From the NCBI GenBank assembly GCA_016281495.1, contig JAEEIU010000045.1, positions 1-64,000 on the forward strand: DNA of 64,000 nucleotides. Reading direction: 5' to 3'. The first letter of the stretch is position 1, and each line of letters opens with the position of its first letter. Below the pieces are notes generated by a model. The model saw only the letters and a list, made by a program, of their open reading frames with translations, was not told the origin of the DNA and searched no databases. The DNA comes from Treponema sp. Lineage in GTDB: Bacteria; Spirochaetota; Spirochaetia; Treponematales; Treponemataceae. Shown piece by piece: positions 17,012-63,669 of the stretch. A program made the position numbers and the translations under genes.

Positions 17012-17135
17012 AGCAATACCCCACCTGAATAAATTAGTAAACAATATTCCTTAATTCTTGTTATCGGAAAAAGAATTTTAGACTTTAGTACTTTTTTATG
17101 TTTTTTTGAAAAAATTTTGTCACGCGGATTAAAGT

Positions 17136-57855: not shown

Positions 57856-59094
57856 TTAACTGTTCAGGACTCCAAGGGCCTTTTGGATTATGAGTGCGGG
57901 TTTCTGAGGCTTTACAAGGAAGCTTCTTGCACCAAGACTCAATGCCTGAATTACACCCTCTTTGCTTGTGGGCTGGGAATAAACGATGATTGGAGTTGTA
58001 AATCCCTGCCTCTGAAGGTTCCTGAGGATATCAAGTCCGTTGATGTCGCTAAGGTTCAAATCCATGATTACAACATCAAACTGGTCGTTTGCAATGGATG
58101 ATTGGAATGTAGTGCCGTTTTCAAATACCACAGCCTCTGCATTAATTGCCTTGAACGATGCAACAAGAATATTGCGTGACTGTTCGTCATTGTCTACAAT
58201 GGCAACCTTTATTGTTGAGCTCTTTTGCTCGTCATTCTTTGCTGAACCGCCGTTGTCATTGCCGAAACGTGTGTCGATGGAACTGGGAACAATCTCATCA
58301 TCAGCAAAAAGGATTTTATCTGAAACAATGTCAATTACATCATCCGCGGTGGTGCCGCTGTCCACAAGAGAGTTGAGGATGTCGTTGAGGCTTTCTACAA
58401 CTTCAATTCCATGGTATGCGGGGTGCCCCTCGATAAGGTCGGTTGTAAATTTGTTAAGCGAAAGAACCTTGATGTTTTTAAGCAGGAATGAGCCTATCAA
58501 ATTGTCAAAAAGTATCTCAAGGTTCGTACCGTCAACAAAAGTCAAATCCAAACTGGTCATCATGATGATGATCTTAGGATCGTGCATTTTGTTCTTTTCT
58601 ACAATTTCGTCAAGCTTGTATTTAAGGATTTCGATCTTGTCGCGGTTAAGGCCCTGTGCAATGTCAACAAAGATGATGTTTCCGTTGACATGGGTTTCTA
58701 TTACGCTTGGAGTTTCGTCTATTGTAAGCCTGGTCTTTATGATGCGGCCTATGGCTTCAAAGAATACATCGAACTTTATGGGTTTTGTAAAATAGTTGAA
58801 GACACCGTACTTTGCAAGGTTTGAAATGCTTGAGCGCGGAATCTCCGGACCGACAATCATCATGGGAAGCTTGGCGGCATTCGGTTCTGAAATCTTGTTG
58901 TCAAGGAAGTCCTGTATATGAAGAATGTCTGACTCAACGTCCACGATGACAAGGTCAGGCATCAGGCTCACCATTTTTTGAAAAGCGTCTCGGTTTCCTG
59001 CTGCAGTTTCAACCTTAATCTGCTCGGCGAGTAATCTTTCCTTCAAGAACTCCATAAAAATAGGAGAAGCATCAATCAAAAGAACCTGTTTCAT
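57856..59094 (-). CDS. response regulator with receiver-STAS-like-receiver layout
   Basis: Receiver 1 (about residues 1-120, phospho-acceptor D52 in VIVDVE; only one acid of the acidic pocket, I7-D8), a middle domain (about 132-240) with NIIFVDIAQGLNRDKIEIL and TSLDLTFVDGTNLEILF that resembles STAS anti-sigma-antagonist domains, and receiver 2 (about 290-412, VDNDEQSRN, IMDLNLSDINGLD, KP). There is no DNA-binding output. Together with the sensor-less hybrid kinase just downstream this suggests a protein-protein signalling relay. The promoter predicts a leaderless mRNA. Confidence 0.85.
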   Translation of the reverse strand: MKQVLLIDASPIFMEFLKERLLAEQIKVETAAGNRDAFQKMVSLMPDLVIVDVESDILHIQDFLDNKISEPNAAKLPMMIVGPEIPRSSISNLAKYGVFNYFTKPIKFDVFFEAIGRIIKTRLTIDETPSVIETHVNGNIIFVDIAQGLNRDKIEILKYKLDEIVEKNKMHDPKIIIMMTSLDLTFVDGTNLEILFDNLIGSFLLKNIKVLSLNKFTTDLIEGHPAYHGIEVVESLNDILNSLVDSGTTADDVIDIVSDKILFADDEIVPSSIDTRFGNDNGGSAKNDEQKSSTIKVAIVDNDEQSRNILVASFKAINAEAVVFENGTTFQSSIANDQFDVVIMDLNLSDINGLDILRNLQRQGFTTPIIVYSQPTSKEGVIQALSLGARSFLVKPQKPALIIQKALGVLNS

Positions 59095-59165: not shown

Positions 59166-59180
59166 ATCACACGGATTCGA
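59166..59180 (+). repeat. 15-bp inverted repeat, left arm
   Basis: ATCACACGGATTCGA. Its exact reverse complement is at 60562-60576, so the two arms frame the 59236-60489 gene. An 8-bp hairpin GATTTTGC-TAAC-GCAAAATC starts at its inner end (59179-59198). Confidence 0.75.
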
Positions 59181-59235
59181 TTTTGCTAACGCAAAATCCT
59201 TTTAAAGAGTATTTGCCATTCAGATCGGGGAAATG

Positions 59236-60489
59236 CTACCTTGATGAGGTGATAACATTTTTCACTATGATTTTATCCTTGTTTTCTATATCAAAAACAT
59301 GCCACAAAACACCAGCTTTCCCAGGTTCTATAGTAAAAGTTTGCTTATGTTCATTCCCAAAATATACTTCTACACGTGCACCTGATAAAGAAAGTCTGTC
59401 GCTTTCATAATTGCCGCCATCTGTGTAATTATGTACCCAATATTCGTATTTATCTTCTGTTTTTGGTTCTCTTATGGTTATTGTTTCAGGGCCGTAAGAG
59501 CTTGTATCGTCATGATCAAGATTCAGGTTTCCATCATCTTTGTCTATCCAATAAGCGTGGTAATTTTGACTGAAAATATGAGAATCCAAATCACTGGGAG
59601 CTTCACCCCATGTTAGTATAATCTTTATTCTGTCATAATCAACAGCTTTTGGAAGTGATACAAGGTTTGCGGAGGGTAAGCATCCGTTAATGATTGAGAA
59701 TGATTTTTCGGTTTTCACATAGTCTCCATCTTGCTTTTCTATCACGAAACTGTGTTCACCATCCTCTATATCTTCCGGCAAGGCAACTTTTCCATTGTTA
59801 TCACTCTTTAAAAACCATTTTTTGTCAATGGTGATGTCAGCATTTGTAATGGGACTTCCTGTGTCGCTATCAGAAATCAAAAGAAACTTCTGGTTGTTTA
59901 CATCCGACTTGCTTAATATAAGTTGATTTGGAGATGTTATTTCACCAGATTTTAGTGAAAGAGTTCTTTGGGTTTTTGAATAGTTATCAGTACTTTTTTC
60001 TACTGTAATGCTATGGTCGCCGTCTGTAATGTCATCTGGAATAATTACTTTGCCATTTGAATCTGCCTTCAAGGTTGTTTTATTGTCAATAACCATTTCT
60101 GCATTTGCAACTGGTTTTCCGGTAACACTGTCCGTAATATAAACTGCTCTACTACTAACGGGAGGTTTGTCAAGCCGTTCATACCAGATGTCATTTATCC
60201 GTTCTTTTTTTACAATGGGTAGGTTTGTCAGCATTTTTGCATGAAGGTCTGCAGATTCTTTGTTTGGTTGATGTTCCTCCCACATAAGCCTATAATAGAC
60301 TGTATAATCCGGGGCTGTATAATGAGAAATGTTTGTTTTTATGTCATTTTTCCTCAATAATTCCTGGCGTCGTGTTGCATTCGTGTAATTCCTGAAAGAA
60401 CCAAGATAGATGCACCAGTCCTCAGAAAAGGTCAAAGCAGAGATAGAAAAAAAGAAAAAAGTTGAAATAAGATATTTAGCGATTTTCAT
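59236..60489 (-). CDS. exported protein with SPOR-like start, two Ig-like repeats and YfaP-type C-terminus
   Basis: A signal peptide (about residues 1-22), then a SPOR-like stretch (WCIYLGSFRNYTNATRRQEL ... YTVYYRLMW), two homologous carboxypeptidase-regulatory-type repeats (about 115-190 and 200-270: DSVTGKPVANAEMVID / DSDTGSPITNADITID, each followed by DSNGKVIIPDDI or DNNGKVALPEDI), and a C-terminal domain like YfaP/DUF2135 (LTWGEAPSDLDSHI, YWVHNYTDGGNYESD). All parts suit a periplasmic or surface protein. It is framed by 15-bp inverted repeats and more AT-rich than its neighbours, suggesting transfer. Confidence 0.78.
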   Translation of the reverse strand: MKIAKYLISTFFFFSISALTFSEDWCIYLGSFRNYTNATRRQELLRKNDIKTNISHYTAPDYTVYYRLMWEEHQPNKESADLHAKMLTNLPIVKKERINDIWYERLDKPPVSSRAVYITDSVTGKPVANAEMVIDNKTTLKADSNGKVIIPDDITDGDHSITVEKSTDNYSKTQRTLSLKSGEITSPNQLILSKSDVNNQKFLLISDSDTGSPITNADITIDKKWFLKSDNNGKVALPEDIEDGEHSFVIEKQDGDYVKTEKSFSIINGCLPSANLVSLPKAVDYDRIKIILTWGEAPSDLDSHIFSQNYHAYWIDKDDGNLNLDHDDTSSYGPETITIREPKTEDKYEYWVHNYTDGGNYESDRLSLSGARVEVYFGNEHKQTFTIEPGKAGVLWHVFDIENKDKIIVKNVITSSR

Positions 60490-60561
60490 TAAGATGTACC
60501 TTCCAAATTATTATATGAGGTAATACTGGATAAGTCAATCTTAGGAAATCATGTAATGATT

Positions 60562-60576
60562 TCGAATCCGTGTGAT
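60562..60576 (-). repeat. 15-bp inverted repeat, right arm
   Basis: TCGAATCCGTGTGAT, exact reverse complement of 59166-59180. Confidence 0.75.
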
Positions 60577-60681: not shown

Positions 60682-60894
60682 ATGGAAAACGAGAACAAAA
60701 ATGAAACAAAGAATGTGATTACAGGAAATAAAATTGTGACAGTTCTGTCAATCGTCGGATTTTGTATCGGCGCCTTCCTGTTTGGATGGAACCTGTATTT
60801 CAAAAGGGTGCCTCAGATGATTGTATTTCTTTTGATTACATTGATTTGTGCCGGCTTCTTTGTGAACAACGTTAAGGGCAAAGGAAAAAAATAA
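60682..60894 (+). CDS. small two-segment membrane protein
   Basis: A 70-residue protein with an Asn/Glu/Lys-rich N-terminus and two transmembrane segments (about residues 19-38 and 43-62), ending KGKGKK. AGGAG precedes ATG 60682. Family unknown. The DJ-1 gene follows after 18 bases, so the two are likely co-transcribed. Confidence 0.65.
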   Translation: MENENKNETKNVITGNKIVTVLSIVGFCIGAFLFGWNLYFKRVPQMIVFLLITLICAGFFVNNVKGKGKK

Positions 60895-60912: not shown

Positions 60913-61476
60913 ATGAAACGAGCTGTAGTTTTTATTACTGATGGTTCGGAAGAGATAGAGACTCTTTCGCCAGTAGATTACCTGAGGCGTGCCAAGGTTG
61001 ATGTTACCCTGGTTGCTGTTTCCAATAACAAGACTGTAAAATGTTCCCGTGGTGTAACGGTTACTGCGGACAAGACGATAGCAGAGCTGGATTTGAATGA
61101 TCTTCCTGATGCGGTTGTTGTTCCCGGTGGAATGCCCGGTACAAAGGTTCTGGCCGGAGACAAAACTGTAGTGGAAACCGTCAAAAAGATGAATGCAGAA
61201 GGCCGTCTTGTATGTGCCATATGTGCCGCCCCCGCTCTTGTGCTTCCTCAGACAGGTGTTCTGGATGGCAAGGAATGGACTTGTTACCCGGGAATGGAAA
61301 ATGAAGCTGCGGCATTTAAGTCAAAATATGTAAGTGGCAAAGCTTTTGTAAAAAGTGGAAACCTTATTACAGGTCGTGGTCCCGGAGCTGCCGAGGAATT
61401 CTCCATGGAGATAGTTAAGTCTCTTATGGGAGAAGCTGTTTATTCCCAGGTAAAGGCAGACGCACAGCAAAGATAA
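60913..61476 (+). CDS. DJ-1/PfpI family protein
   Basis: A 187-residue DJ-1 superfamily member. The catalytic-type Cys is in VCAICAAPALVL (about residue 105) with the supporting Glu in TDGSEEIET (about residue 15) and PGGMPGTKVL. This matches the YajL/DJ-1 branch, proteins tied to protection against oxidative or glycation damage; the actual reaction is disputed in the field. AGGGGA precedes ATG 60913. A TetR regulator follows after 26 bases. Confidence 0.92.
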   Translation: MKRAVVFITDGSEEIETLSPVDYLRRAKVDVTLVAVSNNKTVKCSRGVTVTADKTIAELDLNDLPDAVVVPGGMPGTKVLAGDKTVVETVKKMNAEGRLVCAICAAPALVLPQTGVLDGKEWTCYPGMENEAAAFKSKYVSGKAFVKSGNLITGRGPGAAEEFSMEIVKSLMGEAVYSQVKADAQQR

Positions 61477-62922: not shown

Positions 62923-63351
62923 TCATTCAGAGAACCAGTCTTCCACGCGTAAAAAAGTTTTTTCCCTTATCGTTATGAAATCATCAAGATTATGGGTGAC
63001 AAGGACCATGCCGTTTGAGACTGCTGTGGCCGCAATCTGTGAGTCATAGCAGGGCAGTGATTTTCCTGTTTTCTCCGCATCAGCCTGAATCTCCCCGCAA
63101 ATCCGTGCAGTGAATTTGTCGTAGGGAATGACATCAAGGTCCTCCTCATATTCTTCAAGACAGTTTTGAAGATACTGCTTTCTTCGGCCTTCTGGCAGAC
63201 GTTGGACTCCTCTTGTCAGTTCTTGCCATGTTATTGCAGAAATTGCACACAAATCTCTTCTAGCTTTGTATAGTTCAACTACCTGAGCATTAGGACGCTC
63301 TTTAGAAAACTCAGAAACAATATTGGTGTCCAATAAATAAGTTTTTTTCAT
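62923..63351 (-). CDS. vapC: PIN-domain toxin VapC
   Basis: A 142-residue PIN domain of a different branch from the one at 3081. It starts KKTYLLDTNIVSEFSKERPN (first Asp), has the middle Glu in ITWQELTRGVQRLP, and ends with CYDSQIAATAVSNGMVLVTHNLDDF. An Mg-dependent RNase is expected. The FitB-like form usually pairs with a Phd or ribbon-helix-helix antitoxin, and the antitoxin gene lies upstream with 42 bases between. AGGAG precedes ATG 63351. Confidence 0.92.
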   Translation of the reverse strand: MKKTYLLDTNIVSEFSKERPNAQVVELYKARRDLCAISAITWQELTRGVQRLPEGRRKQYLQNCLEEYEEDLDVIPYDKFTARICGEIQADAEKTGKSLPCYDSQIAATAVSNGMVLVTHNLDDFITIREKTFLRVEDWFSE

Positions 63352-63393
63352 GTAAATCTCCTGATTAAATCTCCTGATTTATAATTGTGAATG

Positions 63394-63669
63394 CTATGCC
63401 CATGGATCTTTTGAATAATCCGGACATTCCCGTGAAGGTGTTATGTCGAATCCAAGATCATCTACGACATCTGAAAATTGTTTTTTTAATGCATCGAGTT
63501 TGTCCAGAAGTGATGGCTTTGTTTCCTGTTTATTCTCATATTCCCCGTAGCTTATGATTACGGCAACAGGTTTGTCATATCGTGTAAGCTCCACGACCTC
63601 ACCTTCTTCTGCCATCTTTACCAGGGCCGAGAAATTATTGCGCGCTTCGTAAATAGATGTCCTGCACAT
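63394..63669 (-). CDS. Phd/YefM-family antitoxin
   Basis: A 91-residue protein. The N-terminal half is the Phd fold (SIYEARNNFSALVKMAEEGE then VVELTRYDKPVAVIIS, about residues 5-41), which binds operator DNA; the C-terminal half is acidic and neutralises the toxin. It ends CPDYSKDPWA. AAGGAGGAG precedes ATG 63669. Antitoxin-first order as usual. Confidence 0.92.
   Translation of the reverse strand: MCRTSIYEARNNFSALVKMAEEGEVVELTRYDKPVAVIISYGEYENKQETKPSLLDKLDALKKQFSDVVDDLGFDITPSRECPDYSKDPWA

Follow-up and report, generated by a model that had tools for sequence, protein, structure and literature searches.

A stretch of 64,000 nucleotides of Treponema DNA (hereafter the window) contains a 15-bp sequence, ATCACACGGATTCGA, that returns as its exact reverse complement on the other side of a single gene of note. 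Do these two arms belong together and, if so, what kind of unit do they delimit? A preliminary description had located both arms exactly and suggested that they frame a mobile cassette or former insertion, or else an invertible segment. It had also observed that the left arm adjoins an 8-bp hairpin, but missed that the right arm does so as well (Table 1). Allowing two mismatches, the window holds no third match to the 15-mer, with 0.10 expected by chance, and by a rough estimate 64 kb of sequence would contain ~0.1 inverted repeats of 15 bp by chance with the arms within ~1.5 kb of each other. The pair by itself is therefore only mildly unusual, and we take it as real because further copies exist genome-wide.

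Table 1. Coordinates of the window unit, its neighbours and comparable GxxExxY elements; entries with an L number refer to loci outside the window.
Feature	Position	Strand	Remarks
Left arm (15-mer)	59166..59180	+	53.9 bits to covariance model R1
TIR core TCACACGGATTC of left arm	59167-59178	+	
Left hairpin GATTTTGC-TAAC-GCAAAATC, 8-bp stem	59179..59198	+	
Right hairpin GAAATCAT-TAC-ATGATTTC, 8-bp stem	60545..60563	-	37.3 bits including right arm
Right arm (reverse complement of 15-mer)	60562..60576	-	TIR core 60564-60575
417-aa gene between arms	59236..60489	-	Signal-peptide-like start; only gene of note between arms
Promoter-like TTGACT-17-TATAAT of 417-aa gene	60510..60538	-	Just inside right arm; predicted, read from sequence
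70-aa probable membrane protein	60682..60894	+	Outside right arm; derived AT-rich block; kept in G009
Left neighbour, response-regulator gene	57856..59094	-	Adjoins DJ-1 in six congeners
Right neighbour, DJ-1/PfpI gene	60913..61476	+	
GxxExxY gene filling element end to end	L213:1442-1893		Stop = last TGA of terminal repeat
GxxExxY gene filling element end to end	L214:1450-1901		Stop = last TGA of terminal repeat
GxxExxY gene filling element end to end	L216:1448-1924		
GxxExxY gene filling element end to end	L218:1433-1914		

The arms are termini of Treponema repeats that form a dispersed family with hairpin ends, an assignment that we regard as practically certain. In the window's genome, for which all copy counts are those returned by searches, the 15-mer occurs 23 times with at most one mismatch while a reversed control pattern gave 0 matches; an exact core-plus-loop pattern finds 62 ends against 0 in controls, and the number rises to 81 (E ≤ 0.001) with a covariance model derived from 18 tetraloop copies. 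Each end reads (ATTG)TCAC[A/G]CGGATTC and continues into an 8-bp stem, whose loop is TAC, TAAC or TTAC; two such ends face inward. In 130 element instances, a few of them overlapping or from duplicate loci, the TCAC[A/G]CGGATTC motif was found at both termini. With the covariance model, family ends were detected in 25 of the 39 Treponema genomes, the next richest after that of the window containing 55, 51, 43, 32, 27, 21 and 20 ends; the end pattern had no match in the 23 genomes that represented other genera within the order. Among the matches listed from the genome collection, those bearing a name mostly belong to rumen Treponema, T. bryantii among them. Viral contigs gave no match to the end pattern, and a phage origin of the family was rejected on these grounds. 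An Rfam search of the window returned two tRNAs only, the repeat family being absent from Rfam. No description of such repeats in Treponema was found in the literature searched, which comprised papers readable without subscription, and the family is apparently undescribed. The window contains in addition a third, degenerate end without hairpin, TCACGCGGATT at 17116-17130 (13.6 bits to the covariance model), which adjoins a short repeat recurring after other copies (L010, L018, L044).

The hairpin stems differ between copies while remaining paired. Of 279 half-sites chosen by the core of the terminal inverted repeat (TIR) alone, 237 have a stem with at least seven of eight pairs at a constant offset, compared with 0.35 in shuffles; part of these loci had been fetched with a pattern in which the loop, though not the stem, was fixed. 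There are 46 different 5′ stem arms, and swapping the arms among copies lowers pairing from 95.5% to 58.7%. Two alignments yielded covariation scores of 0.78 and 0.71 versus 0.18 after shuffling and contained 46 and 35 cells altered on both sides, with only one single-sided change in each; the half-site count is nevertheless the fairer test, since the rows of both alignments were picked for distinct stems with at least seven of eight pairs. The near-absence of one-sided G-U states points to a constraint at the DNA level, to palindrome correction or to replacement of whole hairpins rather than to stepwise evolution of an RNA. We infer that the stems stay complementary despite sequence change through palindrome correction or recognition of the DNA hairpin. 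Stems that alter in sequence yet remain perfectly paired make the choice between palindrome correction and selection on the fold directly testable.

Outside the window's species, complete elements are mostly 73-90 bp long, with a short AT-rich spacer separating two inward ends; this basic element can fold into a TIR stem bearing two hairpins. Most complete elements of the window's genome measure 145-360 bp and have further repeats nested inside. Twenty-four of 75 distinct complete copies of up to 115 bp lie in open frames that extend for at least 50 codons on either side, and they encode a common peptide. The host genes include a type I restriction specificity subunit (HsdS) and an ABC transporter, both confirmed by Pfam. 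An identification of one gene with an in-frame copy as ssb was rejected, this gene being a type I restriction specificity subunit. In the ATPase domain of the ABC transporter, one surface loop holds either an in-frame family copy or unrelated repeats according to species (L166, L099, L122, L188, L032, L142), as though insertions at this spot were tolerated.

Short palindromic repeats dispersed in-frame inside unrelated proteins, and also between genes, are known from Rickettsia as RPE. Like these and their Wolbachia counterparts, the Treponema family is short, palindromic and dispersed, and occurs in-frame in unrelated proteins as well as in intergenic regions. However, its host is another and its sequence probably unrelated, and it has two side hairpins with covarying stems as well as gene-bearing forms with the same ends. 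An isolated inverted repeat has led to an apparently undescribed family of gut Treponema, whose small palindromic repeats behave like the protein-invading elements of Rickettsia; repeats of this kind would accordingly not be confined to intracellular bacteria. The family also resembles MITE-like elements in being short and non-coding, with terminal inverted repeats, many dispersed copies and a possible larger coding relative, but no known transposase family with matching ends was found. With REP/BIME sequences and their RAYT it shares hairpins, inverted pairs and dispersal; however, the Treponema stems are variable and the ends different, and a REP/RAYT identity was rejected because the Y1 transposase (PF01797) had no match in the element-rich genomes tested (G000, G004, G009, G020, G024). 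Finally, a single gene bounded by hairpin-forming sites recalls the gene cassettes of integrons. Sites of the attC type lie in direct orientation and have RYYYAAC/GTTRRRY cores, whereas the ends of the window unit are inverted and without the attC core, and no integrase was seen; an integron cassette was rejected for these differences in the ends.

The gene between the arms is present once in the genome. It had been labelled Ig-repeat/YfaP-like, to which Pfam lends little weight, its matches being a sub-threshold carboxypeptidase-regulatory-like repeat and an equally sub-threshold SPOR-like N-terminus. Relatives of the gene in G001 and G005 lie at none of the covariance-model matches listed and, given also the single genome copy, a multicopy transposon carrying the 417-aa gene was rejected. 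At a GC content of 0.364 the gene is indeed AT-richer than the neighbouring HK, RR and DJ-1 genes (0.43-0.47; window, 0.44); the 70-aa ORF just beyond the right arm is as AT-rich (0.366). In six congeners the response-regulator (RR) and DJ-1 genes are divergent and 68-166 bp apart with nothing between them, whereas the window species and G009, its closest relative, have arm, gene, arm and 70-aa ORF in this interval. The whole block must hence be derived, including the part that runs beyond the right arm.

G009 is the only relative to carry the unit and has both arms in the same place and the same orientation, from which it follows that the unit is old. Between these conserved arms length and content vary. 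The first 118 residues of the 417-aa protein are 87% identical to those of its G009 counterpart (L090), while the remainder (window 59236-60160) is non-homologous; judged by eye, the C-terminal part of the G009 gene resembles a von Willebrand A-type domain. In G009 (L090) the left arm is split by 60 bp of inserted sequence with the 5-bp repeat ATTCG on either side, which the window lacks and which is a sign of nested insertion. The same module recurs in many elements of the window's genome (L009, L041, L042, L055, L224). At another element site common to both species the interior measures 195 bp in G009 and ~1630 bp, with genes, in the window's genome. A small gene pair further along the window (62923-63669), PIN-type toxin-like and antitoxin-like by eye from the translations, is likewise kept in G009 (L090:3328-4097).

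The best explanation of the locus, to which we would give about an even chance, is that the window unit represents a gene-bearing copy, now fixed, of a small mobile element with hairpin ends. Larger forms of the element hold a gene or other repeats between their ends, and this one would consist of a promoter, one gene and two hairpin ends. The unit would have been set between the response-regulator and DJ-1 genes in the ancestor of the window species and G009 and have stayed fixed from then on, the 3′ half of the 417-aa gene presumably having been exchanged later; movement would probably have occurred via the folded ends as single-stranded DNA. The proposed mobile cassette or former insertion is borne out insofar as the arms are the ends of a repeat family with mobility-like features, the block is absent from six congeners and the same ends box other genes, among them a 231-aa ORF without family and a 149-aa secreted-like protein in G009. 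A cassette that is recent or freely moving is contradicted by the two arms in G009, the single-copy gene and a derived block that exceeds the right arm. Neither a target duplication nor a clean empty site was recovered for the unit, the congeners that lack it being too diverged, and the empty-site candidates of other element copies aligned poorly or retained half an element.

The strongest counter-argument to the arrival of the unit as one element is the extension of the derived block beyond the right arm, together with the frequency of unpaired ends. Both speak for two independent half- or truncated copies that happen to flank a gene block acquired by ordinary recombination, the arms never having acted together, a serious alternative whose probability falls somewhat below one half. 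The search in the window's genome gave 23 near pairs of ends and ~50 ends without a near partner; half-elements that have lost their other half occur (L162), and repeats of the family crowd accessory regions. However, the arms of the window unit face inward, both have kept their hairpins, their distances to the gene ends are 70 and 86 bp, and other genes are boxed alike. Two inward solo pairs 420-1500 bp apart exist in the window's genome where 0.2 would be expected under uniform placement, an expectation that is too low because accessory DNA clusters.

A quite different possibility would make the hairpins transcription terminators or mRNA stabilisers, retained for that reason at gene ends, with mobility wholly a matter of the past. 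This appears improbable. It would suit the many intergenic copies and the position of the left hairpin, 38 bp past the stop codon of the 417-aa gene and before the next gene on the same strand, but the T-run does not directly follow the hairpin and the right hairpin lies upstream of the promoter-like sequence. That a third of the short copies lie within frames, and that G-U changes on one side of the stem are so rare, also speaks against it. The invertible segment of the preliminary description, which a recombinase would have to turn round at the 15-bp repeats, has to be abandoned as extremely unlikely even though the inverted arms enclose one gene plus its predicted promoter, considering the unchanged orientation in G009, the lack of a recombinase among the neighbouring genes checked, the ~80 similar ends genome-wide and the position of the promoter inside the segment, such that inversion would not switch the gene.

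The best candidate for a mobilising enzyme would be GxxExxY (PDDEXK_3 nuclease-like; PF13366, TIGR04256), whose gene fills the element from end to end in related species. It lies between two inward ends ~450-480 bp apart in G027, G031 and G004. The G027 and G031 loci look orthologous and thus count as one; in both, the hairpin abuts the ribosome-binding site of the GxxExxY gene, the gene terminates in the final TGA of the TIR, and the element is adjoined by a relative of 212-230 bp whose ends are the same. In G010 the gene is boxed in the same layout with the TIR core alone conserved. Two contigs of the window's genome, C3 and C38, break at their right ends (L224, L227) inside a GxxExxY gene that begins to be read just past an element end and is identical in sequence in the two, which suggests a multi-copy GxxExxY unit that broke the assembly. 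Inverted repeats scoring at least 13 boxed 15 of 31 GxxExxY genes in a sample from genus and phylum, versus 1 of 51 neighbouring ORFs. While in related Treponema the GxxExxY genes lie between the same ends as the window unit, which carries another gene, the repeats that box them elsewhere in the phylum differ in sequence, for example AACAAACGGATTTGTTC with a CTAACG loop, CACAGATTACACAGAT and ACAGGATTAACAGGATT (L219, L220, L221, L234-L256).

GxxExxY is a candidate only, as it was not found in the element-rich G009 and G024. The papers found that name it assign no function to it, and it is not known to have transposase activity. In a broader proposal, which we consider rather unlikely, GxxExxY proteins would be the mobility proteins of a widespread class of very small elements whose inverted ends bear hairpins; the short palindromic repeats in Treponema proteins would be their gene-less offspring, and the same ends could take up unrelated genes, including that of the window unit. 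If this is true, GxxExxY should bind or cut folded single-strand ends in a structure-dependent manner next to TCACACGG. The boxed genes already point to a possible role for this widespread protein family. Two further loci may be mentioned, both read from the sequence: small genes between two ends at L036:4103-4991 resemble, by eye, a toxin-antitoxin pair, and a 270-aa gene resembling recombination-promoting nucleases adjoins an element at L039:3095-3907.
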